Positions 18,679 to 40,713 of a DNA stretch of 64,000 bases are shown here, in pieces. The notes under the pieces were generated by a model. It was not told where the DNA came from and did not search any database. It saw only the letters and a program-made list of their open reading frames with translations. Every line of letters begins with the position of its first letter. Within the stretch, counting starts at the first letter, position 1. Made by a program: the position numbers and the translations under genes. The stretch comes from Vibrio aerogenes. GTDB lineage: Bacteria; Pseudomonadota; Gammaproteobacteria; Enterobacterales; Vibrionaceae. The stretch is from the NCBI RefSeq assembly GCF_024346755.1, contig NZ_AP024861.1, positions 1,674,001-1,738,000 of the forward strand, given 5' to 3'.

Positions 18679-18779
18679 TAAGACCAACCGAATCAGACGC
18701 GTTATGATAAGAACGGCTCCCTGCACATGCAGGGGGCGGGGAAACAGGGTTTCAGGCAGTCAGGATCCGGAAGAAGAGA

Positions 18780-19589: not shown

Positions 19590-19600
19590 ACAGAGGATTT

Positions 19601-21489: not shown

Positions 21490-24400
21490 ATGAACAAATG
21501 GCTAACCGTCACGGCGATGGCTTTGGCAGGTTCTGCTCAGGCAGAAATTGCCGCGACTCATATTTACCACAATCATATGCCAAATTTCTGGCCCTACTAC
21601 GATGTCAGTCAGTACGATCAATTACCCACCGGCGCCCCGATACGTTATACCTACGACGGACAGGTGGTTAACTTAAAGAAAAATCCGCCACCAAATTATA
21701 CTTTTTATATTCCGGGAAGCGGGCTGCCGATGCCTCATGATGATCTGACATCTTACTATACGCATCATGCAAAAACCGGCGCGTACCTGTCGTGGCCGAT
21801 GGATACCGCGAAGGCAAATCATGCGGCGCATCCGCTGAGCCAGACTCAGGTGACGATGTCTGCGGCGGTGATTAATAATGTCCAGAGTTTCGCGGAACTG
21901 GGAAACATGGACGGTTACAATCAAGGCTGGGGGAATTACTGGAAGGACGTCCGCAACAGTGTCAAAACCAGCCATAACTTTCATGCGCTGGAGACGATTC
22001 ACTTTGCCGGCCATCACTCAATGGGGCCACTGGTCGGGGATGACTATTTCCTGAAAGACCTGATTTATCAGAATGTGACCTTAGCACAGGATTATTTTCT
22101 GGGTGATAGTTTTACATCATCAAAGGGCTTTTTCCCGACGGAACTCGGCTTCTCTGAGCGGATTATTCCGGTATTAAATAAACTGGGCATTGAGTGGTCA
22201 GTATTGGGAAATGTCCACTATTCCCGCACTTTGCGTGATTATCCGTATCTCAATGATCCGGGCGTTGACACGCTGGTTTCACCACCGAACCGGGCGGATA
22301 TGCAAAACACCAGCGACCAGGGAAGCTGGAAGTCTCTGCCCATGTTCAATGAACAGCAGGTGACACACAACAAATTTCCTTTCGCATCCATTCCTCACTG
22401 GGTGCAGTATGTTGACCCTGAAACAGCTGAAGTATACAAGGTTGCCGGTATACCGGTTGAGCAGGCCAGTTCATGGGAAGAAGGCTATCAGGGGAGTGTG
22501 ACCGCGGGTGTGTTGAAAGATTATGAGTCTGATGCTGCTGCACTGGGGCGCAAGCAATATTTTGTGATTGCCCATGATGGGGATAACTCTTCCGGCCGGG
22601 CCGGTGATGGCGGGACCTGGCTTAGTTCCGGAAATGTGACCTACGCTGATTCCGGTGTTGTGGGGATGGGCGTTGAGGAGTATCTGCTGGCCAATCCGAT
22701 TCCTGCCGGTGATGTGGTCCATGTGCAGGATGGCTCATGGATTGATACCCGTGATTCTTCCGCCGATCCGACCTGGTATCACTGGCATATTCCAATGGGG
22801 GTCTGGTCTGGCCAGATGAGCGATTTTAATACAGCCAACGGGACGAGCTATACCGCTTCGCGGCAGCATATGGTGTCATTTGAGCTGGGTTATCACTATC
22901 TGGAACGAAATTTTGCCCTGTTGCAGGCTGCGGAGAATTATGCGAAGACAGCAGAACAGATCTGGCTGGATGATAACCCGGATTACTGGCATCCGAGTAG
23001 TGATCGGGACCATCAGGTCACTTATGACGGCAACCAGCTTAACCCGTGGATGATGTCTTATCCGGTGAAAGGGGATGAAAATAATAACTATGCAGGTGGT
23101 GCGAATCCGGCAGAACTGGGTTGGTATTTTTTAATTGCATCGATGGATTCCGGTTTTGGTTATTATGATGAGAATGTGGATGATGGCGTTAAACCCACGA
23201 TTTCGTTTAATCAATCGCTGCACTTTACCACGCCATATGTAGAAAAAAATATCAGCAAGGACCGGACCGGACCATCGGTCTGGTGGCCACAGCGATATCC
23301 TTATAATCCTGGGAGTGTCAATAACAGTAAGGCGGAAGGCTGGGCAACCGTCTATGCGGATACACACTTTGCGGTCTACACGTATGCCTATGATGTGAGC
23401 GGGGTGAAAGATATCTCAGTCAAAATCCGTCCACACAAAGATAAATGGGCCAGTCCGACGGATAAAACTTATAAATTGTATTCCCCTGCATCCCACAGTA
23501 ATGATCCTCAGGTCGATCCATCCCGGGTTGGGGCGTGGCAAAGTTATCCGATGAAAATGCGTGACCTGAGTAAAGATATCAATGGTGTCAGCTGGCAGGC
23601 ATCCGGCAAGGCAACCTTTCAGGTGGTCCCTGCTGAAAAAATCGGGAATTTGTATTACACCTACTTCAATCAGTATCAGGATCAACTGCTGGATTACTAT
23701 ATTGAAGCAACAGACAGCAAAGGCAATGTCACCCGGTCTGATATTCAGCAGGTCTATGTGGGTGCCGGTCGCTATACGCAACAGGATAATAAAACCGTTG
23801 AGGATGTGAATGGCACTATTGCCGGGACGGATGTTTTCTTTACCGCTGATTATGTGCCTGAGAGTGAACGCCCGGTCGCAGTGATTACGCCAGAAGGCCA
23901 AAGCGTTGAAGAAGGTACAGTTGTCACCCTGAGTGCGGAACAATCCACTGATCCGGACGGTAAAATTGTCTCCTACCTCTGGAATACAGGTGAAACAACC
24001 GGCACGATCACGGTGACGGTAGACAAGCTGAGCACCTATTCGGTGACAGTGACGGACGATCAGGGGAATACTGATACGGCCAGTGTCACCTTCAGTGTGA
24101 TCGGTCAGGTGGTCGCCAGCACGATTTATTATCAGAATAGCCAGGGCTGGGATAAGGTCTGTCTGCACTACAGCGTTGATGGCGGCGCCACATGGACGAC
24201 CCCTCCGGGTGAAGAGATGACTCAGGTTCAGGATAACTGGTACAGCTTGAGCGTTGAATTACAGCCGGATCATGATTTGGAGTTTGATACCAGTGACTGC
24301 AACAGCAGCTGGGACAACAACGGAGGGTCAAACTATCAGGCCGGGCAGGGTGAATGGCAGCTGAGCAGTGGCACTCTGTCTTCAGGGAAACCGGATGAGC

Positions 24401-24960
24401 TGGCAAACCTGAAGCCTGTCGCTGTGATTACGGCGTCTGCGACTCAGACAGACATCGGTGGCAGCGTGGATTTTAGTGCCAAAGATTCAACTGACAGTGA
24501 CGGGACGATTCTCAGCTATGTCTGGAGTAATGGTGCAACCGGTGAAACCACCCGGATGACTTTTGATACGGCGGGTGTGTTTACCATTGAACTGACGGTG
24601 ACCGATGACGGCGGGAAATCAGCGACAACGACCCAAACGATTAAAGTGGTCGATCCTGATCAGCCTTTTACTGCAAATCTGAAGCAGCTTTATTTCCGGG
24701 GCACACCAAATAACTGGGAGACGACAGCAATGTCACTGGTCGCGGACAATACCTGGCAGGCCGAAATTAATTTTGATGGTCAGAGTGACCAGCGTTTCAA
24801 GTTTGATGTTGAAGGTGACTGGAGTCATAACTACGGTGATAATGGCGCTGATGGCACACTGGATCCATCCGGCAGTGATATTTACACCAGTGTCACAGGG
24901 CGTTATCTGGTGCAAATGAATGATGCAGACATGAACTATCAGCTGATCGCTGTTGAGTAG
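21490..24960 (+). CDS. Secreted multidomain GH57-type alpha-glucan hydrolase
   Basis: 1156 residues with a signal peptide ending GSAQA at residue 18. The catalytic region (about 20-480) shows GH57 motifs: HNHMP (His27, His29), FFPTELGFSE with likely nucleophile Glu218, and VIAHDGDN with Asp363. After it come a beta-rich region, a PKD domain (about 794-870), a CBM25-like module (about 872-950, ending in WDNNGGSNYQ), a second PKD domain (about 974-1053) and a C-terminal starch-binding-like module (about 1062-1156, LYFRGTPNNW). It should act outside the cell on starch, glycogen or pullulan. Cysteines in the CBM suggest a disulfide. A strong terminator follows. The family is called by motif, and exact bond specificity is open. 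Confidence 0.8.
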   Translation: MNKWLTVTAMALAGSAQAEIAATHIYHNHMPNFWPYYDVSQYDQLPTGAPIRYTYDGQVVNLKKNPPPNYTFYIPGSGLPMPHDDLTSYYTHHAKTGAYLSWPMDTAKANHAAHPLSQTQVTMSAAVINNVQSFAELGNMDGYNQGWGNYWKDVRNSVKTSHNFHALETIHFAGHHSMGPLVGDDYFLKDLIYQNVTLAQDYFLGDSFTSSKGFFPTELGFSERIIPVLNKLGIEWSVLGNVHYSRTLRDYPYLNDPGVDTLVSPPNRADMQNTSDQGSWKSLPMFNEQQVTHNKFPFASIPHWVQYVDPETAEVYKVAGIPVEQASSWEEGYQGSVTAGVLKDYESDAAALGRKQYFVIAHDGDNSSGRAGDGGTWLSSGNVTYADSGVVGMGVEEYLLANPIPAGDVVHVQDGSWIDTRDSSADPTWYHWHIPMGVWSGQMSDFNTANGTSYTASRQHMVSFELGYHYLERNFALLQAAENYAKTAEQIWLDDNPDYWHPSSDRDHQVTYDGNQLNPWMMSYPVKGDENNNYAGGANPAELGWYFLIASMDSGFGYYDENVDDGVKPTISFNQSLHFTTPYVEKNISKDRTGPSVWWPQRYPYNPGSVNNSKAEGWATVYADTHFAVYTYAYDVSGVKDISVKIRPHKDKWASPTDKTYKLYSPASHSNDPQVDPSRVGAWQSYPMKMRDLSKDINGVSWQASGKATFQVVPAEKIGNLYYTYFNQYQDQLLDYYIEATDSKGNVTRSDIQQVYVGAGRYTQQDNKTVEDVNGTIAGTDVFFTADYVPESERPVAVITPEGQSVEEGTVVTLSAEQSTDPDGKIVSYLWNTGETTGTITVTVDKLSTYSVTVTDDQGNTDTASVTFSVIGQVVASTIYYQNSQGWDKVCLHYSVDGGATWTTPPGEEMTQVQDNWYSLSVELQPDHDLEFDTSDCNSSWDNNGGSNYQAGQGEWQLSSGTLSSGKPDELANLKPVAVITASATQTDIGGSVDFSAKDSTDSDGTILSYVWSNGATGETTRMTFDTAGVFTIELTVTDDGGKSATTTQTIKVVDPDQPFTANLKQLYFRGTPNNWETTAMSLVADNTWQAEINFDGQSDQRFKFDVEGDWSHNYGDNGADGTLDPSGSDIYTSVTGRYLVQMNDADMNYQLIAVE

Positions 24961-27163: not shown

Positions 27164-27937
27164 TCAGCAGTAAAAAAAATCAAACCCGGTAAAATCTTCC
27201 GGTAAAAACGGGTTATCCAGATAAATCACATGCCGGTGTTTTAAGCGGGCACGACGGATGTATTTCCCATAATGCCGGTAGACCAGCTGCGCCATTTCAC
27301 CGCTTTCGCAGCAATGTTGCGCTCTGGTATTCAATAACCGTTTCAAATCGGGTCGTAACGGGGAAACATAGAACACCAGTGGCAGCGGATAGTAGATTAA
27401 TGTGGTGGGCTCGATACACAGATCTTTTGCAATCTCCGGATGCTGGCTGAGAATTTCTTCAGCTTCATTGATACCCAGAGAGACATAATCACATTCCCCC
27501 TGCTGCAATGCATGAAGGATATCCCTGATGTTGCCTGCCTCACAGACCGGAAGGTGATTATGGCGGAATATGTCCGCGTCAGCCCATGTTGCAGGAATAC
27601 CGGCTGTTTTTTCCTGTAACAAATCCAGTGTGACGGACTGAAATAAGGGAATATCATTCCGGCGGATAATGAGCAACCGACAGCCGAGAATTCCTTCACA
27701 AACCGGGTGGGGGACAGAGAAAAACTGACGGTGTGAGAATTTCTGGTTGCCAGCCACGGTCACGAATAAATCGACACCACGAAAAAAGATGTTGGACTCG
27801 TCTTCTGCGTTTGGGTAGTCGGTCATATCGTTCTGAATCTCTGAAGGAGACTCAGAACCAGCAAGCAGATATTGCAACACATCCAGCTCATGATGTTGTC
27901 GTGCCGTTGATTTATTACCATTCCAGAAAATGACCAT
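27164..27937 (-). CDS. Solute-binding-protein-like protein without signal peptide
   Basis: 257 residues, starting MVIFWNGNKS with a very strong SD (AAGGAG, 6 nt away), so the lack of a signal peptide is real and not a missed start. The fold looks like a type II periplasmic-binding protein (ABC-type PhnD/SBP_bac_3 class): SVPHPVCEGILGC, IPATWADADIF and CDYVSLGINEAEE resemble hinge and binding strands. Two Cys pairs near the C terminus. A LacI-type palindrome (28034-28051) lies 97 bp upstream, so it probably belongs to the adjacent import regulon, perhaps as a cytoplasmic sensor. The function is not established. Confidence 0.55.
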   Translation of the reverse strand: MVIFWNGNKSTARQHHELDVLQYLLAGSESPSEIQNDMTDYPNAEDESNIFFRGVDLFVTVAGNQKFSHRQFFSVPHPVCEGILGCRLLIIRRNDIPLFQSVTLDLLQEKTAGIPATWADADIFRHNHLPVCEAGNIRDILHALQQGECDYVSLGINEAEEILSQHPEIAKDLCIEPTTLIYYPLPLVFYVSPLRPDLKRLLNTRAQHCCESGEMAQLVYRHYGKYIRRARLKHRHVIYLDNPFLPEDFTGFDFFYC

Positions 27938-28033
27938 TCTTTTCTCCTTGCCTTCATTGCCAGCAATTCGCTGTAAAAAACATCACCAAAGATCAACAGA
28001 CCCGGATTGGATCTTAGATCAAAATGACCATGA

Positions 28034-28051
28034 AAAGAAAGCGCTTTCTTT
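28034..28051. promoter_or_regulatory. LacI-type operator 1
   Basis: Perfect 18-bp palindrome AAAGAAAGCGCTTTCTTT in the divergent promoter region of the signal-less binding-protein gene and the ABC importer. The GCGC centre is typical of LacI/PurR-family sites. Confidence 0.85.
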
Positions 28052-28296
28052 GTGATATTGTGTTCAAATACGACAAAAAATAATGCAGCGCTGTTCTGTG
28101 AGGTTGTCAGGCGTATTATTCTGGCATTATTAAAAGTCATTGACTGATTGAGTATAAATATAACTTATTGTTAAATAATATTTTTTATTTTGTTCTTCTT
28201 TTCTTTGTTCAACTGTGGCAGATAACATTTATGTGATCACTGATTCGTTTTAACGAGATTTTATTTGAAGAATACTGAGAAAATGAACAGAATCAT

Positions 28297-28312
28297 AAGA
28301 AAGCGCTTTCTT
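28297..28312. promoter_or_regulatory. LacI-type operator 2
   Basis: Perfect 16-bp palindrome AAGAAAGCGCTTTCTT, 30 bp before the solute-binding protein ATG, where binding would block transcription or early elongation. Confidence 0.85.
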
Positions 28313-28342
28313 TTATGAATTTGCAATAAAAAGGATAATGTG

Positions 28343-29977
28343 ATGCAGAAGAAAACCCTGATTGCCTCTATTGCTGCTGGTTTCATATCTATCGCTGCTC
28401 ATGCCAGTCAAGAGATTAAACAAGGCGGAACACTGACCGTGCCGATTATTAATACGGGATTTGTGCAAAATTTTAATCCGTATACGACGAAAGATTTACT
28501 CAATGGCATCATGTTTGAGCCTTTACTGGTGTTCAATAATATGACCGGTAAAACGGATTTCCGCCTGGCAAAGTCTTATCAGTATTCCGGTGATTTAAAA
28601 ACGCTGACACTGACATTACGTGATCAACTGAAATGGTCTGATGGCAGCCCGCTAACCGCTGATGATGTGGTCTATAGCCTGACAATGACAAAAGCGTATC
28701 CGGCATTTGATCTGAAAGGGATCTGGTCCGGAAAGAATTTACAGTCAATTACAGCGAAAAATGCAACGACGGTTGTTTTTCAGCTCAAAGATGCTGACTC
28801 AACATTTGTCTGGAATCTGGAAAACTATCATATTTTGCCCAAACATATCTGGTCCAAAGCGTCAGACCTGAGCAAGTTTACTAACCCGAATCCGGTTGGC
28901 AGCGGACCAATGACCACGGTGAAATATGTCAAACCACAGCAGATGAAGTTGTGCCGTAATCCAGCATATTATCTTGAAAACCGTCCGTATCTGGATTGTG
29001 TGGTGTACCGCTCATATAACGATAACTCTCAGATTCAGCCTGCGCTGATTAAAGGAGAGATTGACTGGGGGTCGAACTTTATCGCAGATGTTGAGTCCAC
29101 ATTCGTGGCCAAAGACAAGGCCAATAACCATTTTTGGTATCCACCAAATGATGCGATTCATCTGTATATGAATACCAGGAAAAAGCCGTTTGATGACCTG
29201 CGGGTGCGTCAGGCGTTGTCGATGGCTTTGGACCGCAAGGCGATTGTCGATATTGCTGCTTATGGATACCCGACTCCCAACTTCAATGTGGGTGGCATCG
29301 GTGAGCTGTATAAAACTTATATTGATGCCAAAGTGAATCAAAAATACGGCTATCTGACCAGATATGATGTAAAAAAAGCCCGGTCTCTGCTGGATGAAGC
29401 CGGTATTGTTGACCGCGATGGTGATGGTTTCCGGGACAACAAAGACGGTTCGCCCATTGACCTGAAGATTGAAGTCGTCAACGGCTGGACGGACTGGATT
29501 CAGGTGGTGCAGATGGTCAGTGAATATTTTGCTGATGTCGGTGTGAAAGCCGGTGTCAAAATGGTGGACTGGGCGGTCTATGATAAAAACCTGAAAGACA
29601 GCAATTACACCATGGCTATTAACTGGTCACTGGTGGCAACGAACCCGATTCTGGCCTATCAGGATTATTTTTCCACCGCCCGTATTGGTAAAACATGGCA
29701 TGCTGGTCATGGCATTCATACTCCGGAAACCGACAAATTAATCGAGAGCTTCGGCAAGACAGCTGATGCGGGTCAACAACAAGAGATTCTTTCTCGCCTG
29801 CAGGCGTTTACTGCGCAGCAGATGCCATTTATTCCGTTATTTTCTAATCCGACCTGGTTCCAGTACAGCACGAAAAAGATTGTCGGCTGGCCGGATGCTG
29901 AGCATCCTTATGTGCAGCCCGTCTGGTATTACGGCGGTAAGCGCGTGATTATTTTAGATCATTTGCATCTGAAATAA
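28343..29977 (+). CDS. Opp-type ABC transporter substrate-binding protein (SBP_bac_5)
   Basis: 544 residues with a signal peptide ending IAAHA. The family 5 signature is clear: KSYQYSGDLKTLTLTLRDQL, KWSDGSPLTADDVVYSL, and RVRQALSMALDRKAI in the lobe. The start used is the ATG 6 nt after AAGGAT; a GTG one codon earlier is less likely. Such proteins bind oligopeptides or, in chitobiose- and cellobiose-type systems of Vibrio and Thermotoga, oligosaccharides. The LamB-type porin and LacI regulator of the same regulon favour a sugar. It is followed by a hairpin and four further ABC genes. Confidence 0.88.
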   Translation: MQKKTLIASIAAGFISIAAHASQEIKQGGTLTVPIINTGFVQNFNPYTTKDLLNGIMFEPLLVFNNMTGKTDFRLAKSYQYSGDLKTLTLTLRDQLKWSDGSPLTADDVVYSLTMTKAYPAFDLKGIWSGKNLQSITAKNATTVVFQLKDADSTFVWNLENYHILPKHIWSKASDLSKFTNPNPVGSGPMTTVKYVKPQQMKLCRNPAYYLENRPYLDCVVYRSYNDNSQIQPALIKGEIDWGSNFIADVESTFVAKDKANNHFWYPPNDAIHLYMNTRKKPFDDLRVRQALSMALDRKAIVDIAAYGYPTPNFNVGGIGELYKTYIDAKVNQKYGYLTRYDVKKARSLLDEAGIVDRDGDGFRDNKDGSPIDLKIEVVNGWTDWIQVVQMVSEYFADVGVKAGVKMVDWAVYDKNLKDSNYTMAINWSLVATNPILAYQDYFSTARIGKTWHAGHGIHTPETDKLIESFGKTADAGQQQEILSRLQAFTAQQMPFIPLFSNPTWFQYSTKKIVGWPDAEHPYVQPVWYYGGKRVIILDHLHLK

Positions 29978-30000
29978 CCGGTGTGTATTGAATAAGGCAG

Positions 30001-30030
30001 CGGAGCCGTGATGTCACAATGACGGCTCCG
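30001..30030 (+). terminator. Intercistronic hairpin between binding protein and permease
   Basis: A perfect 9-bp stem CGGAGCCGT / ACGGCTCCG with a 12-nt loop and no T-run. Such hairpins usually stabilise the upstream mRNA and lower expression of the permeases. Confidence 0.5.
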
Positions 30031-30047
30031 GTGTAAAAGGCTTGGGT

Positions 30048-31022
30048 ATGAGATTTTTATTTCGGCGCTTTAGTTTTTACTTTACAGCTTTTCTGATTGC
30101 GATTTCTTTCAACTTTATGTTGCCCCGTTTAATGCCGGGCGATCCGGTGGATGCCATGTTTGCGGCAGCACAGGGCAGAATGGAGCCATCACAAATGGAT
30201 GCGGTACGTGAGATGTATGGCTTTGCTGACGGTAATTTGTTTGAGCAGTATATATCGTATCTGAAGAGTGTTTTTACGCTCGACTTAGGGCCATCGGTGC
30301 TGATGTTTCCGGTCAGTGTTTCTGACGTCATTGCAATGGCGCTGCCGTGGACGATGTTTCTGGCGCTTGGATCCCTGATTGTGTCATTAATTATCGGTGT
30401 CAGTATCGGGACTTACGCCTCGTATCACCGGCAGGGATTCTTTGGTCAGGTGGTGCCGCCGGTGCTTGCGTTCATCAGTAATTTTCCTTACGTCGTAACC
30501 GCTTTGCTGCTGTTTTACTTTTTGGGTTTGAAACTGTCGCTGTTACCGCTGGCTTATACCTACGACCCGGCCATTGAACCCGGACTGACAACGGAATTCA
30601 TCGGCAGTGTTGCCAGACATGCTGTGTTGCCGGTGGGGTCAATGGTTGTGGTTGGCATTGCAACCTGGGTGTTTAACATGCGTAATGCGATGATCAATGT
30701 GCTGGGCGAAGATTATGTCACCATGGCTGAGGCAAAGGGCCTGAGTGGTTTCAGGGTGATGTACCGGTATGCCGGGCGCAATGCGATTCTGCCGGTGGCA
30801 ACTGCGATTGCGATGGCGATTGGTTTCTCATTTGCCGGTTCCGTGATGACGGAGGTGGTTTTTAACTATCAGGGATTGGGAAATATTCTGCTCAAAGGCA
30901 TTGTTGCCCGCGATTATCCGCTGATTCAGGCGATTCTGCTGATTCTGGTGACGGCAGTACTGACCGCGAATTTCATCGCCGATTTACTCTATGTCTGGCT
31001 TGATCCCCGGATTTCAAACTGA
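30048..31022 (+). CDS. Opp-type ABC transporter permease (OppB/DppB-like)
   Basis: 324 residues with six membrane helices. MLPRLMPGDPVDAM near the N terminus is the hallmark of the DppB class. The EAA loop for ATPase contact reads EDYVTMAEAKGLSGFRVMYR. The ATG at 30048 follows AAAGG. It is the first membrane subunit of the importer and is followed 8 bp later by its partner permease gene. Confidence 0.92.
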   Translation: MRFLFRRFSFYFTAFLIAISFNFMLPRLMPGDPVDAMFAAAQGRMEPSQMDAVREMYGFADGNLFEQYISYLKSVFTLDLGPSVLMFPVSVSDVIAMALPWTMFLALGSLIVSLIIGVSIGTYASYHRQGFFGQVVPPVLAFISNFPYVVTALLLFYFLGLKLSLLPLAYTYDPAIEPGLTTEFIGSVARHAVLPVGSMVVVGIATWVFNMRNAMINVLGEDYVTMAEAKGLSGFRVMYRYAGRNAILPVATAIAMAIGFSFAGSVMTEVVFNYQGLGNILLKGIVARDYPLIQAILLILVTAVLTANFIADLLYVWLDPRISN

Positions 31023-31030
31023 GGTGTCAT

Positions 31031-32021
31031 ATGGATAATTGCATGAATTCAGAACCATCATCCGGGCCGGAAAAAAGGACTGCTGAGCCACGTTTGTCCC
31101 GGAAAAAAATCACCAAAGTGTTTGCTAAAGTTTATGCATTTTTCTACGGCAATCCACCGGCTATTCTGGGCGGATTATTACTGACGATTATTCTGACAGC
31201 CGCTGTATTTGCGCCGGTTCTGGCCACGCATAATCCGGATAAGCGTGTTGCCCGGCCACATGTGGCACCGAATGCAGAATACATACTCGGGACAACCCGG
31301 AGCGGGCGGGATGTGTACAGTCAGGTCATTTATGGGGCAAGAAAGTCGCTCACAGTGGCGGTTTCTGCCGGCATTATTGCGATGTCACTCGCCGTCTTCA
31401 TCGGTGTTTCTTCGGGGTATCTGGGCGGGAAAACAGATGAGCGGCTGAACTTTTTAACCAATGTTTTTCTGGTATTTCCACAGTTGCCGCTGCTCATTGT
31501 GCTGGCTGCCTTTCTGGGGCAGGTCAGTTCGCTGGTCATTACCCTTTTGCTCGGGGTGACGTCATGGCCATGGGGCGCGCGGGTCATCCGTTCGCAGACG
31601 ATGGCGATTCGTCACAAAGAGTTCATTATTTCGGCTGAAGTCATGGGAGAGTCGAAAATTCGGATTATTCTGGCCGAAATATTACCGAATCTGACTTCGA
31701 TCGTGTTTGGTGGATTTTTAGGCACGGTGATTTATGCAATGGGAGCCGAAGCCGGGCTGGGGATTCTGGGACTCGGCGATGCAACAGAGGTGAGCTGGGG
31801 CTCGATGTTGTACTGGGCACAGACCTCTTCTTCTTTATATACCGGCGCATGGTGGGAAATGCTGGTACCTGCACTGGCGCTGGCCATGACGGGGGGGGGC
31901 TCTGGCGCTGATAAATATGTCGATTGATCAGGTCAGTAATCCGAAACTGAGAACCGGGCCACACATGAAACTGTGGCGCAAACTTAAAAAAGAAGCGGAT
32001 AAACGACGGGGGTTGAAATGA
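31031..32021 (+). CDS. Opp-type ABC transporter permease (DppC-like), frameshifted at a G9 run
   Basis: As read, the frame stops at 31927 after 298 codons, with an odd Gly-rich tail (TGGGSGADKYVD). Dropping one G from the run at 31891-31899 restores ALALINMSIDQVSNPKLR and a normal basic tail ending at a TGA at 32019-32021. That TGA overlaps the next ATG by 4 bp, the spacing seen in such operons. The intact form would be 329 residues. The body has a cytoplasmic N terminus, six helices, and the EAA loop SAEVMGESKIRIILAEILPN. The truncated form loses the end of the last membrane helix. The cause may be phase variation, ribosomal slippage, a recent mutation or a base-calling error. Confidence 0.88.
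31891..31899 (+). repeat. Homopolymer run of nine G in a permease gene
   Basis: The run is ACGGGGGGGGGC; eight G, not nine, gives the conserved downstream frame. It is long enough for slipped-strand change. Confidence 0.9.
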
Positions 32022-33007
32022 GTTATCTGTCCGGCAGGCCTTATTTGTCTGATGCTGCCCCGTTACTGGAAATTCGCAACTTGTGTGTGGATTATGTTTC
32101 TCCCAACGGTGTGGCCCGTGCTGTCAATCAGGTGAGTCTTTCACTGGCGCCGGGGGAAACACTGGGGATTGCCGGTGAGTCCGGCTGTGGAAAAAGTACG
32201 CTGGCTTTTGCGATCTCCCGGCTGCATAAAGCGCCGGCACTGATTTCAGAAGGTGAAATTCTTTATCAGGGGACGGATGTCCTTAAAATGAATGAGAGAC
32301 AGCTGAGAAATTTCCGCTGGAATGAAGTGTCTGTGGTGTTTCAAAGTGCGATGAATTCCCTCAACCCGGTGATTACCATTGGTGAACAGTTGACGGATGT
32401 GATTCGTGCTCATAAAAAAGTGACCGCCCGGCAGGCCAGAGAGCGTGCAGCCGAACTATTGAACATCGTTGGTATTCATGCTGACCGGCTGCAGAGTTTT
32501 CCACATCAGTTGAGCGGTGGCATGAGACAGCGGGTTGTCATTGCAGTCGCGCTGGCGCTGGAGCCTAAACTCATCATTATGGATGAGCCGACTACTGCGC
32601 TGGATGTGGTGGTTGAACGGGAAATTCTCAATGAGCTTTATGACCTGAAGCGTCAGTTTGGTTTCTCGATTCTGTTTATCAGCCACGATCTGAGCCTGAT
32701 GGGTGAAATTGCTGACCGTATTGGCGTGATGTATGCGGGGAATCTGATTGAAATGGGTGAGGCCCGCCATGTGTTCGGTGATCCACAACATCCTTATACC
32801 AAAGGTCTGATTTCATCCTTTCCGACCATCCACGGCCCGAAGGAGCGATTATTTGGTATTCCGGGCCATCCCGTCAGCCTGCTCAATCTTCCGCCCGGAT
32901 GTAACTTCCGCGAAAGATGTCATGTTTGTGATGCCACTTGCGGGAAAAAAGAACCCGTACTCAGACAGGTTGCCAATGGCAGTCTTGTTTCTTGCCATTT
33001 ACTGTAG
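32018..33007 (+). CDS. Opp-type ABC transporter ATPase (DppD-like)
   Basis: 329 residues. Walker A GESGCGKST, signature LSGGMRQR, Walker B LIIMDEPTTALD and the switch His (FISHDLSL) are all present. The C-terminal oligopeptide-transporter extension has the Cys cluster (PPGCNFRERCHVCDATC), which in this class can hold an iron-sulfur cluster. The start overlaps the restored end of the permease frame by 4 bp. It hydrolyses ATP for import together with the next gene product. Confidence 0.93.
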   Translation: MSYLSGRPYLSDAAPLLEIRNLCVDYVSPNGVARAVNQVSLSLAPGETLGIAGESGCGKSTLAFAISRLHKAPALISEGEILYQGTDVLKMNERQLRNFRWNEVSVVFQSAMNSLNPVITIGEQLTDVIRAHKKVTARQARERAAELLNIVGIHADRLQSFPHQLSGGMRQRVVIAVALALEPKLIIMDEPTTALDVVVEREILNELYDLKRQFGFSILFISHDLSLMGEIADRIGVMYAGNLIEMGEARHVFGDPQHPYTKGLISSFPTIHGPKERLFGIPGHPVSLLNLPPGCNFRERCHVCDATCGKKEPVLRQVANGSLVSCHLL

Positions 33008-33020
33008 ACAGGAGAAAATC

Positions 33021-34001
33021 ATGGACACAGCGAATCAACCGGAAGTGATCTTATCTGTCAGTCATCTGGTCAAAGATTTTCCTGTCGGCCAGTCTCTCAA
33101 GGCTGAGCTGATGCGGGCCGTCAATGATGTCTCTTTTGACTTATGCAGAGGAGAAGCTTTAGCGATTGTCGGAGAATCCGGTTCAGGAAAGAGTACCGGC
33201 GCAAGAATTCTGACCCGGATTGATGATGAAACGGCAGGTGAGATACATTTCAAAGGCCAGCCGCTGGCAGAGTTTATCCGGCAGAACGGGGCGCTGGAAT
33301 ATGCCCGGCAGGTCCAGATGATTTTTCAGGATCCCTTTGGTTCTCTCAATCCGGTTCATACAATTTTTCACCATATCGCCAGACCATTACTGATTCATCA
33401 CCGGGCGAACAAGCGGACTGTCCATGCGCGGGTATATGAATTACTGGAACTGGTCGGCTTATCTCCGGCAAAAGAGACGGCTGAAAAGTATCCCCATGAG
33501 CTGAGTGGCGGACAGCGTCAGCGGGTCGCGATTGCCCGCGCGATAGCGGTTGACCCGGAAGTCATTCTGGCTGATGAACCGATTTCGATGCTGGATGTGT
33601 CCGTTCGTCTGGGGATTCTGAACCTGATGTCCGATTTGAAGGACAACTATGGTATTTCATTTATGTATATTACGCACGATATAGCAACGGCCCGTTACTT
33701 TGCAGAAAAGACCGCGGTGATGTACGTCGGACATATGGTTGAGTGGGGAGATAGTGACAGTGTCACTCAAAATCCGCAACACCCATATTCACAGCTGCTT
33801 CTGTCGGCGGTGCCTGAAGCAGGCAGGACCGGAAAGAGAGCGTTGTCAGCAAAAAAAGGAGAAATTCCGCTATGGAAGCCGGATAGTGTGGGGTGTCCGT
33901 TTACATCACGGTGTCTGAAAGCCAGCGAAGTCTGTGCACAATCCCTTCCCGGGCCAACGAGGGTGAGTGAGGGGCATTATGCGCGTTGTCATCATCTCTG
34001 A
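33021..34001 (+). CDS. Opp-type ABC transporter ATPase (DppF-like)
   Basis: 326 residues from the ATG after AGGAGA. Walker A GESGSGKST, Q-loop MIFQDPFGSLNP, signature LSGGQRQR, Walker B VILADEPISMLD and switch region YITHDIAT are intact. The tail carries the Cys cluster GCPFTSRCLKASEVC. It completes a five-part importer (binding protein, two permeases, two ATPases). The unknown large enzyme gene follows after 115 bp with its own operator. Confidence 0.93.
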   Translation: MDTANQPEVILSVSHLVKDFPVGQSLKAELMRAVNDVSFDLCRGEALAIVGESGSGKSTGARILTRIDDETAGEIHFKGQPLAEFIRQNGALEYARQVQMIFQDPFGSLNPVHTIFHHIARPLLIHHRANKRTVHARVYELLELVGLSPAKETAEKYPHELSGGQRQRVAIARAIAVDPEVILADEPISMLDVSVRLGILNLMSDLKDNYGISFMYITHDIATARYFAEKTAVMYVGHMVEWGDSDSVTQNPQHPYSQLLLSAVPEAGRTGKRALSAKKGEIPLWKPDSVGCPFTSRCLKASEVCAQSLPGPTRVSEGHYARCHHL

Positions 34002-34050
34002 AAGGCGGATGACAGGAACAATTTTAAATACAGTCTATTTTTTATAGCTT

Positions 34051-34068
34051 AAAGAAAGCGCTTTCTTT
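34051..34068. promoter_or_regulatory. LacI-type operator 3
   Basis: Perfect 18-bp palindrome AAAGAAAGCGCTTTCTTT, 48 bp before the ATG of the large unknown enzyme, indicating that this gene has its own regulated promoter. Confidence 0.85.
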
Positions 34069-34116
34069 GTGGGTCCTGTAAGCAGAAACAGGCTTTCTTT
34101 AGCCGGGAATGAAATT

Positions 34117-37100
34117 ATGAATCTTGAGCATCAAATGAATTCAAAAACAGAAGGAAAGTTCGTTGAACTAAAGGGGGAACGCTATTATCAGATTGAAAAT
34201 GTCGATCAGATGGCACCTTTTTTCATCAGTGTGGTTTCTTCAGGCGATCACTGGCTGTTTATTTCATCAGCAGGTAGTTTATCCGCGGGCCGTATCCGGC
34301 CTGAGAATGCACTTTTCCCTTATAAATCGGTGGATCATATTCACGAAAGTGCCGGGAACACCGGGCCGAAAACGATTATCTGGGTGAGAGACAAAGACAA
34401 ATGGTGTATGTGGGAGCCGTTTAACTCACATCACGATCATCTGTATATCGTGACACGTAATCTGTATAAAAGCGCTCTGGGCGATAAGATTCTGTTTGAG
34501 GAAATGAACCATTCACTTGGCATGCGATTCCGCTATAGCTGGAATACCAGTGAACGTTTTGGTTTTGTTCGCCAGAGTGAACTGACGGATTTGTCTGGTT
34601 TGGATCGGGAAACGGAAGTACTGGATGGTATTCAGAATATTCTGCCATCCGGCGCACCACTGGCGGCACTGCAGACCCGGAGCGCTTTGGTTGATGCGTA
34701 TAAGTGGAATGAAAAACTGCCGGAGAGTTCACTGGCTCTGTATAGCATGTACGCCAAACTGAGCGACCGTGCGGAACCGGCGGAGTCTTTAAGAGCGACC
34801 ACGGTGTTTAGTGTGGATGAGGAAAGCCGCTGTATTTTGCTCTCCAGTCAACAACTGAATGACTTTCGTCACCGGCGGCCGTTGACCGGGGAGGATTTAA
34901 CCCGCGGCGTCCGGGGAAGCTACTTTATCTGTAAAACCGGCTTGCTGCAGGCTTCTCAGAGCAAATCATGGATGATTGTCGCCGATATTGATAAGAGCCA
35001 CAGCGATATTTCCCGGTTGAGGGCGGTGATGTCGGATTCATCCTGCCTTGCCAGCGTGATCGAAGACAGTGTTGCGTTAAACCAGAAAGAGCTGATTGAC
35101 CTGATGTCCGGCGGGGATGCCTGGCAAATGACGGCAGATGAAAATACGCACGTCCATCATTATGCCAATGTGCTGTTTAATTCGATGCGGGGTGGTATTT
35201 TTGAGAATAACTATGAAATTAATAAGCAGGATCTGATCGCTACCATCGGCAGAACCAACCGGTTGATCGCAGATAAATATGCCGATTTCTTTGATTTGAT
35301 GCCAGATGCCTTCACTCATGCAGATTTGATGAGTGAATTGACTGAGTCCGGTGATCCGCAGCTGATTCGTCTGGGGTATGAATATCTGCCGCTGACCTTT
35401 GGCCGCAGACATGGTGACCCGAGTCGTCCCTGGAATCATTATGAGATTAAGCTCAAAGATGAGCATGGTGAGAGATTACTGTCTTATCAGGGAAACTGGC
35501 GGGACATTTTCCAGAACTGGGAAGCGCTGGCGCTCAGTTATCCGGGGTTCATTTTTTCTTTTCTGGCTAAATTTGTGAATGCTTCCACGATCGATGGCTA
35601 TAACCCGTACCGGATAACCAAAGAAGGTGTGGACTGGGAGATACTTGACCCGCAAGACCCGTGGAGCAATATCGGTTACTGGGGAGATCATCAGATCATT
35701 TATCTGCTTAAGTTTTTCGAATTAGCTGATAAGTATCAATATGACGGATTGGTGAAGCTGATGGCTCAGGACATTTTCAGTTATGCCAATGTGCCGTATG
35801 AACTCTGTTCGGTTGAAAAACTGTTTGAAAATCCGAAAGACACCGTGTCATTCAATCATGCGCTGCAACACCGGATTGAAGCACGGGTACAGCAGATGGG
35901 GAGTGATGGCCGGTTAATCGCAGACCGCAATGGTGAGGTTTATCTGGTCAACCTGACTGAGAAAATGTTGGTACCACTGCTGGCGAAACTCAGTAATCTG
36001 GTTTTGGATGGCGGTATCTGGCTCAATACACAGCGCCCTGAGTGGAATGATGCAAATAATGCGATTGTCGGCAATGGTCTGTCGATGGTGACGCTGTACT
36101 ATCTTCGTCGCTACGTGAGTTTTATGCAGAAGCTGATAAAGGATATACCATCAGCCGTTGCTGTCTCGAAAGAAGTCCTGGAATGGGCATTGAATATTAC
36201 CCGGATTTTACAGGATGCAACACAGGCGATTCATCAGGGAACGGTGAACCGGCAGACAAGGAAATCGATTCTGACACGGCTGGAAAAAGCGGCAGATGAT
36301 TACAGACAGCGGGTCTATCACCTGAATGGCTTTTCCGGGAAAACTGTTGTTGAAACTGCTGTCTTGAGAGAGTTGCTGACATTGAGTGAGGCCGTACTGG
36401 ATGCTTCCATCGCGGGTAACCGCCGCCAGGATGGTCTGTACAATGCTTATAATATTGTGACTTACAGCCGTGAAAGTTTAACGATTGACACGCTTTATCC
36501 AATGCTGGAGGGCCAGGTCGCTGTGTTGAGTTCTGGTGTTCTGACACCGGCGCAGGCTGTTGAATTGCTTGATCATCTGTTTACCAGCGAGATGTACCGT
36601 GAAGATCAACACAGTTTTATGCTGTATCCGGACAGAGATTTGAGTTCATTCCTTGAGAAAAACCTGATTCCGGCTGAATGCGTCCGGCAGAATCCGCTTC
36701 TTGTCAGCATGACAGAAAAAAATGATCGGCGGATTGTGCAGACGGATGATGCCGGAGCATCTCATTTTCATCCTGAGTTTGAAAATGCGGCTTTACTGCG
36801 TGAAGCGATTGACCGTGTCCGGAGTGACTATCCTGAACAACCCGAATGTGCCTGGCAGCAACTTGAGCAATTGTATGAAACGGTCTTTCACCATAAAGCC
36901 TTTACCGGTCGCTCCGGTACGATGTTTGGCTATGAAGGGCTGGGTTGTATCTACTGGCATATGGTTTCCAAGTTACTGCTGGCAGTACAGGAAAATTATC
37001 TGGCTGCCTGGAGACAGAATCCTGCAAGTGAGGAAACGGGCCGTCTGGCCAGTTATTACTATCTGGTTCGCGAGGGGATTGGTTTCAATAAAACGCCGGA

Positions 37101-37563
37101 TGAGTATGGTGCATTTCCGACCGATCCCTATTCCCATACGCCGAAGCATGCGGGCGCTCAGCAACCTGGCATGACAGGGCAGGTGAAAGAAGAGATCCTG
37201 ACCCGTTTTGGCGAACTGGGCCTGATGGTGAATTCCGGGCGTATTTCTGTGTCGCCAACCCTGTTGAAAGCCAGTGAGTTTCTCAGTCATTCATCTTTAT
37301 TTACCTGCCTGAATTTATCCGGGGAACAGCAAAGCTACGTTTTGCAAGCCGGTCAGCTGGCCTTTACATTCTGTCAGGTGCCTTTTATTTATCAGCTGAC
37401 AACAGAGCTGAGCGGGACGGTGACACTGACACTCAAAGATGAAACAACGGTGCTTTACGACTCTCTGACGCTTTCGACTGATATGAGCGCCAGTATTTTT
37501 GAACGTAAAGGTGAGATCAGCAAGGTGTTGGTCACGGTACCTGAATCGATCATGATGAAATAG
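34117..37563 (+). CDS. Large uncharacterised protein, probable carbohydrate-active enzyme
   Basis: 1148 residues, no signal peptide, so cytoplasmic. I cannot assign a family. The first 300 residues are beta-rich with many aromatic residues, as in the N-terminal sandwich of GH94-like phosphorylases. The rest is mostly helical with repeated acidic-aromatic motifs (NPYRITKEGVDWE, SNIGYWGDHQIIYLLKFFE, GNRRQDGLYNAYN, GYEGLGCIYWHM), the look of an (alpha/alpha)6 barrel. It sits after an oligosaccharide-type importer, before a LacI gene, and has its own operator. It is a good candidate for the enzyme that degrades the imported saccharide. Starts at 34135 or 34069 are possible. Followed by a terminator. 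Confidence 0.6.
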   Translation: MNLEHQMNSKTEGKFVELKGERYYQIENVDQMAPFFISVVSSGDHWLFISSAGSLSAGRIRPENALFPYKSVDHIHESAGNTGPKTIIWVRDKDKWCMWEPFNSHHDHLYIVTRNLYKSALGDKILFEEMNHSLGMRFRYSWNTSERFGFVRQSELTDLSGLDRETEVLDGIQNILPSGAPLAALQTRSALVDAYKWNEKLPESSLALYSMYAKLSDRAEPAESLRATTVFSVDEESRCILLSSQQLNDFRHRRPLTGEDLTRGVRGSYFICKTGLLQASQSKSWMIVADIDKSHSDISRLRAVMSDSSCLASVIEDSVALNQKELIDLMSGGDAWQMTADENTHVHHYANVLFNSMRGGIFENNYEINKQDLIATIGRTNRLIADKYADFFDLMPDAFTHADLMSELTESGDPQLIRLGYEYLPLTFGRRHGDPSRPWNHYEIKLKDEHGERLLSYQGNWRDIFQNWEALALSYPGFIFSFLAKFVNASTIDGYNPYRITKEGVDWEILDPQDPWSNIGYWGDHQIIYLLKFFELADKYQYDGLVKLMAQDIFSYANVPYELCSVEKLFENPKDTVSFNHALQHRIEARVQQMGSDGRLIADRNGEVYLVNLTEKMLVPLLAKLSNLVLDGGIWLNTQRPEWNDANNAIVGNGLSMVTLYYLRRYVSFMQKLIKDIPSAVAVSKEVLEWALNITRILQDATQAIHQGTVNRQTRKSILTRLEKAADDYRQRVYHLNGFSGKTVVETAVLRELLTLSEAVLDASIAGNRRQDGLYNAYNIVTYSRESLTIDTLYPMLEGQVAVLSSGVLTPAQAVELLDHLFTSEMYREDQHSFMLYPDRDLSSFLEKNLIPAECVRQNPLLVSMTEKNDRRIVQTDDAGASHFHPEFENAALLREAIDRVRSDYPEQPECAWQQLEQLYETVFHHKAFTGRSGTMFGYEGLGCIYWHMVSKLLLAVQENYLAAWRQNPASEETGRLASYYYLVREGIGFNKTPDEYGAFPTDPYSHTPKHAGAQQPGMTGQVKEEILTRFGELGLMVNSGRISVSPTLLKASEFLSHSSLFTCLNLSGEQQSYVLQAGQLAFTFCQVPFIYQLTTELSGTVTLTLKDETTVLYDSLTLSTDMSASIFERKGEISKVLVTVPESIMMK

Positions 37564-37709
37564 CGGTATTTGTCTGACTGTTTTTTATGGTGATATTTTT
37601 GGGGAACATGTGCTGATAGATCATGTTTTTCATGACGATGCTTATCAATCACAATGACGTTTTATCATCCTGACTCCTTCGGAACAAACAATTCGTCATC
37701 ATTACCCCG

Positions 37710-37733
37710 GCCCCACATGAGTGGGGCTTTTTT
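37710..37733 (+). terminator. Rho-independent terminator
   Basis: Stem GCCCCAC / GTGGGGC with an ATGA loop followed by six T. It ends the import/enzyme transcription unit on the plus strand. Confidence 0.85.
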
Positions 37734-37782
37734 CTTATGATGGTCGACTGGCCTGATGAAGTTTGATCGGTCGGCTGAGGGA

Positions 37783-38784
37783 TTATGAGGTGAGATTTTT
37801 GACAGACTCTCTGATGACCAGCTCAGGGATCAGTTTATGTGTAAAGGATGCTTCCCGCTTATTGACCAGCGCCAGAACCCCTTTGGCTGCTTCAACTCCC
37901 ATTTCATCCACAGGGAAATTGATAGTCGTCAGTTTTGGCCGGATGTGCTGACTGTGCGTGTCGTTATCAAAGCCAACCACAGAAATATCTTCTCCGATTG
38001 ATAAGCCGCGCTCTGCGGCAACGTCATACACGGCGAGGGCTATATTATCATTTTGACAAAAGATGGCGGTGATCTCCGGGTCTCTGTCGAGTAACCGGCG
38101 GGCGACTTCATGATTGCCCTGATGGTCAAAACGCCCCTCAACAATCAAATTGGCATCAAACGCAATACCGGATTCACTGAGTGCATTACGATAACCCTGC
38201 AAACGATCCCGGCTGTCACATTTGCTCAGCTGACCCGAGATACAGGCAACTTTATGATGACCATTTTCCAGTAAATACCGGGTTGCAAGATAACCACCCA
38301 GTTCATTATCAATGTAGATGCAGTGTGCTGCGATTTCAGGAATATACCGGTTCAGCAAAATGGTGGTTTCCTGTTGCCTGACGACTTCTATCAGTTCATC
38401 GTCAGAAAGGGTATCGGAATGAATAATTAATCCATCGACCTGTTTTGACTGTAAAAAATTAATTGAGTCCACTTCTTTGGTATGAGATTCCTGACCACTG
38501 GTCACAATCAGGTGAATATTATTCCGGCGAACGGTGTCTTCAGCGTGATGCATGAGAGGCCCGTAGAATGGGCCGTCCAGAGAACCAACCAGCATGCTGA
38601 TGCTGTTTGACCGGCTGGAAGCGAGTGCCTGTGCAAAGGCATTTGGTTTATAACCCAGTTGCTCAATCGCATCGAACACTTTTTTCCGGTTGGCTTCCTT
38701 GACGGTCGGATGTCCGTTCAGTGCTCTGGATACGGTGGACTGAGATACTTTTGCCAGTTCCGATACTTCTTTAATTGTTATCAA
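37783..38784 (-). CDS. LacI-family transcriptional repressor
   Basis: 333 residues. I chose a TTG start (reading MITIKEVSELAKVSQSTVSR) because GGAGG lies 7 nt upstream and because LacI proteins begin right at this HTH; a longer frame adds 35 unrelated residues. HTH then hinge (LGYKPNAFAQALASSRS) and the sugar-binding core with HIRPKLTTINFPVDEMG follow. It is flanked by genes carrying the GAAAGCGCTTTC palindrome and is very likely the regulator that reads it. The effector is probably a sugar released from, or identical to, the imported oligosaccharide. Confidence 0.92.
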   Translation of the reverse strand: MITIKEVSELAKVSQSTVSRALNGHPTVKEANRKKVFDAIEQLGYKPNAFAQALASSRSNSISMLVGSLDGPFYGPLMHHAEDTVRRNNIHLIVTSGQESHTKEVDSINFLQSKQVDGLIIHSDTLSDDELIEVVRQQETTILLNRYIPEIAAHCIYIDNELGGYLATRYLLENGHHKVACISGQLSKCDSRDRLQGYRNALSESGIAFDANLIVEGRFDHQGNHEVARRLLDRDPEITAIFCQNDNIALAVYDVAAERGLSIGEDISVVGFDNDTHSQHIRPKLTTINFPVDEMGVEAAKGVLALVNKREASFTHKLIPELVIRESVKNLTS

Positions 38785-38816
38785 TGAAACGCCCTCCCGA
38801 TGATGTTTCAAAGAGA

Positions 38817-38856
38817 TATACCCAAGTAACCTCCATCCTGAGGTCACTTGGGTATA
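38817..38856. repeat. 17-bp imperfect palindrome in lacI leader
   Basis: TATACCCAAGTAACCTC and GAGGTCACTTGGGTATA pair with one mismatch around a 6-nt loop. A related degenerate stretch follows (ACTCAAACAACCTGAAGATG at 38880). It looks like a dispersed Vibrio palindromic repeat, from memory only. Confidence 0.55.
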
Positions 38857-38997
38857 AGTTGCTGAAAATACTATTTTATACTCAAACAACCTGAAGATGC
38901 ATTATTCAGCGAGTTTCCTTTACCGCCGGGTTGTTGAGGTTGTGTGTGATGCATCCGATTTTTCCGTTTCAGTCCGGCATTATGTAAATCAACCATG

Positions 38998-39013
38998 AAG
39001 AAAGCGCTTGCAA
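38998..39013. promoter_or_regulatory. Weak LacI-type half-conserved site
   Basis: AAGAAAGCGCTTGCAA keeps the left half and centre of the operator; the right half is degenerate. It may be a low-affinity or decayed site. Confidence 0.4.
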
Positions 39014-39214
39014 GAAAGCACTGCATCCACAGGTCCATTTCTGTGTCACATCACTTCGAAAGGCGGGTGCATTCCTTCAGTTTTTTCCTTGAACTGGACC
39101 TGTTTTTGATGACGCTCTGGCGCCCATCTGGATATATCTTAGCACGGGATTGAATGACTCATCAGAAGAATCATTGTCATCAGTTTGATTCGGAATGTAA
39201 ATCATCTTATTGAT

Positions 39215-39234
39215 AAAAGAAAGCGCTTTCTTTT
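39215..39234. promoter_or_regulatory. LacI-type operator 4
   Basis: Perfect 20-bp palindrome AAAAGAAAGCGCTTTCTTTT, the longest match in the window, 195 bp before the porin start. Confidence 0.85.
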
Positions 39235-39377
39235 CTGGTATTGATCACGGTTTTGATGTGTTAGATTGTTTTATAGTCATTTTTTGTCTCAGGCAGGTCG
39301 TTTTATTCTGTTATTAAGGGTAAATCGTGCTTTTTTGTTATTCCCTGGGGGGAACTGCCTGATTTTTTATAACTATA

Positions 39378-39395
39378 AAAGAAAGCGCTTTCTTT
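39378..39395. promoter_or_regulatory. LacI-type operator 5
   Basis: Perfect 18-bp palindrome AAAGAAAGCGCTTTCTTT, 34 bp before the porin ATG. Together with operator 4 (163 bp centre to centre) it could allow looping. Confidence 0.85.
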
Positions 39396-39429
39396 GTCGG
39401 GGCGTAAAAATGTGAAACATGGAGTGAAT

Positions 39430-40713
39430 ATGAAACTTTCTAATCTTACGATGGCGTGCCTGGTTGCTACGGCCAGTTTATCGGCAGTGCCTGCGGCTTA
39501 TGCTGAAAAATCTGATGGGTTTGAATTTCACGGTTATTTTCGTGCCCTTGGACTTTACAGTAAAAATGACGATTTCAAACGTTCTAAATTTCCGGCCTCA
39601 AAAGAGCGTCTGGGTCGTTTGGGAATTGAATCTGACAGCCATTTTGAACTGGCTCTGCAGAAAAATTTTGAAAACGATACCGGGCAGAAAATCCGGATTA
39701 AAACTCGTGCTGGTGCGGATAATGCCAAATCCGCCGGGGTGAATCAGCTGGGTGAAAATGCGGATGCAGCAAACAGTGATATCGGCATGGTCGAAACTTT
39801 TGTTGAATTTGATGGCGTGACAGAGACCGGGACACTCTGGGGCGGCACCCGGTTTTACGGTAAAGATAACTACATTTTCATGACCGATTTTTTCTATACC
39901 GATATGTCTGGTACTGGTGTGGGGATCGAGGGCATTGAGCTGGGTGGCTATCAATGGGATTTTGCTTATGTCGCCAGTGATGATGCTGAAGGCGATTTTT
40001 GGGCAACCAATGCCAATAACCCGATGCATGCATTGCATGTTGGGGTCGATTTGGGTGGCGTTGAACTCCATGCCATGGGGAAATACCTGCCTGACAATGA
40101 TGTTGACGGCACTCAATATGCAGATAACGGGCTGGAGATGACGGCTATCGTGCATACAGATCAGTTCTTTGGCCTGTCAGACAAAGGGTTTACCAAATAC
40201 ATTGGCCAGATAGGTAAAGGTCTGGGGTCCGGGCAACTGCTGGGCGGGACATTGACAACATATAATGCATGGAAACCAGGCAATGGTGCGCTTGAAGGTC
40301 CATCGCAAATGAAGAAAGTTGAAAGTGGTGATATTTCAGCCCGCGCTTTAATCTGGGGCGGCTACTTCTTTGAGAGCGGTGTCAGTGTTTTTCACTCAAT
40401 TCAGGGGCAGTATAACGATTTGGATAACGGTGGCAAAGACAGCTGGTTGTCGGCAATGGTCAGACCAACATTTCCGGTTTCGCAAAATTTTTCTATCGTG
40501 ACTGAAGCTGGTTATCAGTATAACCGCTGGGAAGATGCCAGTGGTTCAGGGGATCACGCGACCAACTATAAACTTACGGTTGCCCCGACAATTGTGGTCC
40601 CAACCGGCTTTGGTCCCGCACCTGAAATCCGCTTTTTAGCTACATATCTGGATGGGTCGATGCGGGATAAAGCCGATTTACTGGTCGGTATTCAGGCGGA
40701 TATGTGGTGGTGA
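39430..40713 (+). CDS. LamB-like maltoporin-family outer-membrane porin
   Basis: 427 residues from the ATG after GGAGTGAAT. The signal peptide ends AAYA. The mature start GFEFHGYFRALGLYS is the first LamB strand, and WGGTRFYGKDNYIFMTDFFY is the hallmark strand pair of maltoporins. The last residues DMWW end in an aromatic, as needed for Bam-dependent assembly. It should let oligosaccharides diffuse into the periplasm. It is divergent from the LacI gene and preceded by two perfect operators, so it belongs to the same regulon as the ABC importer. Confidence 0.9.
   Translation: MKLSNLTMACLVATASLSAVPAAYAEKSDGFEFHGYFRALGLYSKNDDFKRSKFPASKERLGRLGIESDSHFELALQKNFENDTGQKIRIKTRAGADNAKSAGVNQLGENADAANSDIGMVETFVEFDGVTETGTLWGGTRFYGKDNYIFMTDFFYTDMSGTGVGIEGIELGGYQWDFAYVASDDAEGDFWATNANNPMHALHVGVDLGGVELHAMGKYLPDNDVDGTQYADNGLEMTAIVHTDQFFGLSDKGFTKYIGQIGKGLGSGQLLGGTLTTYNAWKPGNGALEGPSQMKKVESGDISARALIWGGYFFESGVSVFHSIQGQYNDLDNGGKDSWLSAMVRPTFPVSQNFSIVTEAGYQYNRWEDASGSGDHATNYKLTVAPTIVVPTGFGPAPEIRFLATYLDGSMRDKADLLVGIQADMWW

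Follow-up and report, generated by a model that had tools for sequence, protein, structure and literature searches.

A putative LacI-controlled regulon for beta-1,3-gluco-oligosaccharide uptake and phosphorolysis around a GH149 gene of Vibrio aerogenes

The window analysed here is a stretch of 64,000 nucleotides of the Vibrio aerogenes genome, covering bases 1674001-1738000 of contig C1 (NZ_AP024861.1) in a three-contig assembly of 5.37 Mb. It carries a compact cluster in which the gene of a short binding protein, called SBPshort (minus strand), is followed by those of an oligosaccharide-binding protein (SBP), two permeases, two ATPases and an enzyme of 1148 residues (all plus strand), a LacI-family repressor (minus strand) and a LamB-like porin (plus strand). 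This order, with palindromes preceding the binding protein, the importer, the enzyme and the porin and with the LacI gene inside the set, is as an initial annotation made from the letters alone had described it. We propose, with a probability of about 90%, that the cluster is a LacI-switched regulon for the uptake and phosphorolysis of beta-1,3-gluco-oligosaccharides, the sugars of laminarin. Its features are as follows.

27164..27937, minus strand: SBPshort, signal-less, type-2 periplasmic-binding fold, divergent from the importer operon
28035..28050: putative operator, perfect, 98 bp 5' of the SBPshort gene
28297..28312: putative operator, perfect, 31 bp 5' of the SBP gene
28343..29977, plus strand: SBP, oligosaccharide-binding (SBP_bac_5; PF00496, 247.6 bits), N terminus signal-like by eye
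30042..31022, plus strand: ABC permease, DppB/OppB type
31031..31927, plus strand: ABC permease, DppC/OppC type, leaving the conserved frame at a G9 tract (31891-31899)
32018..33007, plus strand: ABC ATPase, OppD type
33021..34001, plus strand: ABC ATPase, OppF/DppF type, ATG start picked within the open reading frame 32853-34001
34052..34067: putative operator, perfect, 50 bp 5' of the GH149 gene
34117..37563, plus strand: GH149 beta-1,3-glucan phosphorylase, 1148 residues (by NCBIfam, 6hq6 and active-site residues)
37709..37728, plus strand: terminator-like hairpin 3' of the GH149 gene (consensus scan; four found against a shuffle mean of 2.3)
37783..38784, minus strand: LacI-family repressor (PF00356 and Peripla_BP), TTG start by inspection
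38998..39013: weak putative operator, three mismatches, 5' of the LacI gene
39217..39232: putative operator, perfect, distal member of the pair 5' of the porin gene
39379..39394: putative operator, perfect, 36 bp 5' of the porin gene
39430..40713, plus strand: LamB-type outer-membrane porin (PF02264, 225.6 bits)

The substrate class follows from the enzyme, which scores 1730.7 bits against the NCBIfam equivalog GH149_beta_1_3 (NF058639; cut-off 1150; profile positions 3-1133 of 1134) and aligns over residues 15-1144 with the solved beta-1,3-oligosaccharide phosphorylase 6hq6 (1089 bits). It keeps the WND motif (W643-N644-D645), the RD motif (R462-D463) and the phosphate-site H948, whose counterparts among the active-site residues described in passages on Pro_7066 (PMC6771811) are W651-D653, R470-D471 and H959 (from the 6hq6 alignment, with an offset of 19). 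The equivalog score above cut-off and the 6hq6 alignment rule out the reading of an unknown enzyme, under which the initial annotation had filed it: by sequence it is a member of the GH149 beta-1,3-glucan phosphorylase family. A Pfam search of the enzyme gives no match, which may explain the earlier label. Characterised GH149 enzymes, as passages of two reports describe them, convert beta-1,3-gluco-oligosaccharides of at least two units to glucose 1-phosphate (PMC5827456, PMC6484121), and this copy is predicted to do likewise. The saccharide, which the initial annotation had held could not be named, can therefore be assigned at family level to the beta-1,3-gluco-oligosaccharides.

Five perfect copies of the palindrome AAGAAAGCGCTTTCTT occur in the window, at 28035, 28297, 34052, 39217 and 39379. 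The positions given earlier (28034, 28297, 34051, 39215 and 39378) were accurate to within two bases, and the weak copy reported at 38998 is present as well. Allowing up to three mismatches, the window holds seven matches, the seventh at 20939; 100 dinucleotide shuffles gave 0.27 on average and three at most. A scan of the whole 5.37-Mb genome with up to two mismatches returned five perfect copies, all of them inside the GH149 cluster, none with one mismatch and two with two mismatches, both on contig C2. The perfect sites are confined to the cluster, and the random scatter through the genome that the initial annotation had named as fatal to its proposal is therefore not what is seen.

The association extends to other genomes. 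The comparison covered 80 named GH149 loci, 15 of which come from Vibrio-type bacteria or near relatives (L005-L018 and L057), and a draw of 150 genomes from the family Vibrionaceae, part of which are the same records as the named loci; the E-value limits, 1e-85 for the LacI search and 1e-20 for the SBPshort search, were the analyst's choice. A GH149 match was found in 38 of the 150 genomes, 36 of them over the cut-off and two (G016, G084) with split or interrupted frames. Perfect sites are present in 35 genomes, all among these 38, and in none of the 112 genomes without GH149. LacI at 54% identity or more occurs in 36 genomes, including 34 of the 35 with a perfect site. Among the Vibrio-type named loci, 14 of 15 contain sites with up to two mismatches; L009 was left out of the site count, having no ABC cluster, no LacI at 54% and a three-mismatch site only. 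The 14 loci counted (318,962 bases) hold 35 perfect sites, 54 with up to one mismatch and 63 with up to two, compared with zero, zero and 0-1, respectively, in five shuffles. These shuffle counts, together with those of the window and the uniqueness of the sites in the genome, rule out that the palindromes are random. In the other named GH149 loci, of which 29 out of 65 were scanned, no site with up to one mismatch was found and only one with two mismatches (L030).

The sites keep a regular geometry. The nearest one lies 27-35 bp 5' of the SBP in seven of the 14 loci and 56-142 bp 5' of it in the other seven, and a site with up to two mismatches lies 12-50 bp 5' of GH149 in 14 of 16 loci. Upstream of LamB they are paired, at 27-45 and 198-220 bp, in all six loci measured. 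Such close spacing to the starts would fit repression by transcription block, and the pairs 5' of the porin may allow looping. In shape they are even palindromes with a central CG, upstream of the putatively regulated genes; local regulons of LacI-family proteins such as CelR and AscG have operators of this same form, most of them 30-140 bp upstream of the start codon (PMC4052901, in part), and the main text of that survey contains no occurrence of 'laminari' or 'glucan'. Promoter scans near the operators gave one prediction against a shuffle mean of 2.2 and five against 3.4 (standard deviation 1.5), nothing clearly above shuffles.

The palindrome is also encountered away from the importer-GH149 cluster. 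Taking as distant any site at least 6.6 kb from GH149 or on another contig, and assigning neighbours by Pfam on representatives and tblastn to these, the matches listed (from 20 of the 35 genomes) comprise at least 32 distant loci in 13 genomes of two genera. Among these matches, 30 of the 32 loci adjoin a GH17 pair (12), GH81 (8), LamB with GH16 (7) or an MFS_2 transporter (3). The palindrome therefore marks beta-1,3-glucan genes even far from GH149, the GH17 and GH81 families being beta-1,3-glucanases. Nearer to the cluster, GH16 genes are found in L005, L006, L008, L013 and L057. Judging from this arrangement, a single circuit may include porin, GH16, GH17, GH81 and a sugar transporter; with operators at the porin in the window and at GH16, GH17, GH81 and transporter genes in relatives, several of these bacteria would therefore probably have a fuller laminarin pathway controlled by this switch. 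Two further genes were noted in these surroundings: a gene for a MalM-like periplasmic protein stands beside GH16 and LamB near this LacI (L013:15182-16159, L220:7840-8808), and a GH30 gene behind a three-mismatch site adjoins the GH149 cluster of Psychromonas ossibalaenae (L012:2475-3854).

In V. aerogenes itself the regulon appears narrower. The cluster was seen to contain no endo-glucanase gene, so that of the complete uptake and breakdown pathway initially proposed, the porin, binding protein, importer, cytoplasmic enzyme and repressor stand, and its completeness does not. A GH16 gene at C1:2024718-2025281 (L085) and a GH81 gene at C1:2204190-2205182 (L233), both outside the cluster, likely encode beta-1,3-glucanases; an extension of the regulon to them was rejected, as no site with up to three mismatches lies within 3.6 and 4.0 kb around them, respectively. 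A GH17 search of this genome gave no match, but its control was silent as well, so that absence is not established. For the GH3 beta-glucosidase found in relatives, this genome offers only matches of 25-46%, at other places.

The LacI gene of the cluster is the candidate for the protein binding these sites. Its product combines a PF00356 helix-turn-helix domain (61.9 bits) with a PF00532 periplasmic-binding-type ligand domain (124.2 bits). DNA specificity in the LacI family is set by two positions of the recognition helix, and among the 14 LacI-family genes of the genome only this one has Gln-Ser there. Several relatives carry sites with zero or one mismatch upstream of this LacI. In one genome (G136) perfect sites are present in the GH149 region, while this LacI is absent from the 19 kb examined; its gene (63% identity) lies on another contig, beside a LamB gene with two perfect sites 175 bp apart. 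The cross-genome comparison thus upholds the local LacI-type regulon announced by the initial annotation and its association of site, LacI and pathway; that this LacI itself binds the palindromes we infer, with strong support from these patterns. Just upstream of the LacI start, at 38817-38856, a 17-bp inverted repeat (TATACCCAAGT...) was also observed; its end, TATACCCAAGTNACCT, has 22 exact copies in the genome and occurs four times in face-to-face pairs with a spacing of 249 bp, a pattern resembling a small mobile repeat.

The proposed mechanism would run as follows. Without sugar, LacI would sit on the 16-18 bp AAAGAAAGCGCTTTCTTT palindromes, which in the window lie 31-98 bp 5' of starts, and would repress the importer operon, GH149, the porin and the divergent SBPshort gene. 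Laminari-oligosaccharides formed outside the cell would enter via the LamB-type porin, be captured by the SBP_bac_5 protein and be carried inward by the Opp-type ABC importer. Phosphorolysis by GH149, unit by unit, would then yield glucose 1-phosphate and finally glucose, and the oligosaccharide or a breakdown product would free the repressor.

Several observations weigh against this mechanism or against parts of it. The assembly shows a break in one permease frame: the conserved C-terminal tail of the second permease continues in another frame past the G9 run, and the same permease lies in one frame in four relatives (L005, L006, L016 and L057). The change may be an assembly error, slippage or a true loss. 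It is conceivable, if improbable, that the cluster no longer functions in this strain, with a frameshifted permease and no endo-glucanase under the operator, the GH16 and GH81 of the genome lying elsewhere without one. The five perfect operators and the open frames of the rest of the cluster speak for a working system, however, and the permease is altered in its C-terminal tail only; homopolymer runs, moreover, are frequent sites of assembly error or slippage.

The binding protein raises the question of the substrate range. Among solved proteins it is most like those that bind chitin oligosaccharides, its best chains including 1zty, a 'Chitin Oligosaccharide Binding Protein' (316.6 bits), against 128.9 bits for 4jsd; 1zty, from a chitin-oligosaccharide ABC system, is an SBP_bac_5 protein like the one in the window, which sits with GH149 and LacI. 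The porin reaches only 44.5 bits against the solved maltoporin 1mpr. Because of the resemblance to chitin-oligosaccharide-binding proteins, the predicted ligand of SBP is taken from the enzyme. The likeness to 1zty could mean that the cluster serves a different or wider set of beta-glucans (mixed-linkage glucan, cello- or chito-oligosaccharides) with GH149 as one of several outlets, yet this is a decidedly unlikely explanation given an enzyme family of beta-1,3-glucan phosphorylases and distant sites that adjoin GH16, GH17 and GH81 genes.

That some other of the 14 LacI-family proteins binds the palindromes, the local LacI acting elsewhere or only on itself, is very improbable: sites occur without a detected ortholog at the 54% threshold in one genome that is 85% complete (G146), and two genomes (G132, G110) have this LacI with only one- to three-mismatch sites, but site and LacI go together in 34 of 35 site genomes, the recognition residues of the cluster LacI are unique in the genome, and in G110, which has neither GH149 nor a perfect site, LacI still stands beside LamB, GH16 and a one-mismatch site.

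Further points also count against the proposed LacI-switched regulon. Three genomes have GH149 without a perfect site (G118, G132 and G011), and in two of them (G118, G011) no LacI was found at 54%. The GH149 contig of G136 also carries a LacI paralog of 44% identity, outside the 19-kb stretch. The putative autoregulatory site at 38998 has three mismatches, no site was found 5' of GH149 in L007, and L009 has a three-mismatch site only. Two distant loci differ from the rest: L240 is cut by a contig end, with neighbours as in the GH81 loci, and in L158, 6.6 kb from GH149, the perfect site at 4915-4930 precedes a small outer-membrane-like gene with no visible glucan role. The Fisher value for co-occurrence in the 150 genomes, 4e-31, overstates independence, and such values are not true probabilities, because the genomes are related and the draw overlaps the named loci.

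SBPshort is the least ordinary member of the cluster. The initial annotation called it a signal-less binding protein, and both parts of this description were borne out: the fold is confidently that of an amino-acid-binding protein (type-2 periplasmic-binding), and no export signal was found, the protein starting MVIFWNGNK with an open frame that adds only 15 codons upstream. A Pfam scan returned no family at E <= 0.1, and the protein is not filed as a member of SBP_bac_3. Three paralogs encoded in the same genome begin, by eye, with a hydrophobic stretch that looks like a signal. A W-x-G-N motif is present towards the N terminus in 119 of 120 homologs listed (178 were found); it begins within 25 residues in 108 of those listed and later in 11, some of these behind a signal-like N terminus. 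A start-codon error is ruled out by this position of the motif near the N terminus in most homologs listed. SBPshort was found in 15 of the 150 genomes, all 15 with GH149 and within about 10 kb of it; relatives at 40-50% identity occur in Psychromonas, Salinivibrio, Glaciecola and others, outside this co-occurrence count.

A tentative reading, which we regard as possible and still doubtful, is that SBPshort is a cytoplasmic binding-fold protein with a sensing or buffering role in the regulon, its ligand being a sugar or signal molecule; it may, for example, act as an additional regulator or pair with either the repressor or the phosphorylase. The missing signal peptide, the confident fold, the putative operator of its own and the occurrence in GH149 genomes in 15 cases out of 15 point in this direction, and the few relatives with signal-like N termini call for caution. 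If true, an otherwise exported fold would here be used inside the cell and retained as a constant component of the beta-1,3-glucan clusters of Vibrio.

GH149 clusters as such are known. Passages of a 2018 study (PMC5827456) note GH149 in many Vibrio species and describe Type I clusters of Proteobacteria with a binding protein, two permeases, two ATPases and a LacI or AraC regulator; the importer set and LacI of V. aerogenes are the same. The study found these clusters without extracellular laminarinase and outer-membrane transporter and read them as scavenging small oligosaccharides, a trait to be taken as the study's description rather than as a strict definition. The present cluster differs in its LamB porin with two putative operators, and in relatives GH16, GH17 and GH81 are under the putative operator. 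The Type I passages are silent on any operator, regulon or SBPshort. Type II clusters of Alteromonadales, in the same passages, join GH149 with GH16, GH17 and an MFS_2 transporter, a set also seen in L026 and L028, and have a TonB-dependent receptor and a histidine kinase/response regulator instead of LamB, ABC importer and this LacI; L026, L028 and L029 contain no site with up to three mismatches. The BglR regulon of Thermotoga maritima likewise responds to sugar and includes a laminarinase, a beta-glucosidase and cellobiose- and laminaribiose-specific ABC importers, whereas BglR is a ROK-family protein, and the passages concerned mention neither GH149 nor a porin (PMC3750489). No description of the operator was found in open-licence literature.

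Two other groups of genes in the window lie upstream of the cluster. A protein of 1156 residues encoded at 21490-24960 combines PKD domains and CBM25 with a weak match to GH57, and has no operator. The row of genes at 13916-20497 is probably another sugar operon; by eye, its translations read as PTS components, a large glycosidase resembling GH38, a regulator of RpiR type and a ROK-type kinase.

Taken as a whole, the regulon is real and well supported, of a fairly ordinary kind, and its substrate class is named. The operator, the wider reach of the regulon and its unusual companion SBPshort are the new details, GH149 clusters in Vibrio being already known; no earlier description of the control of these clusters was found in open-licence literature. 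The analysis corrects the label of an unknown enzyme and draws attention to one conserved companion protein. The 16-bp site, found almost only beside beta-1,3-glucan genes, offers a ready marker for the laminarin regulon in Vibrio-type genomes. Laminarin is an algal storage sugar, and this marine bacterium carries a compact gene set predicted to take up and split its oligosaccharides.

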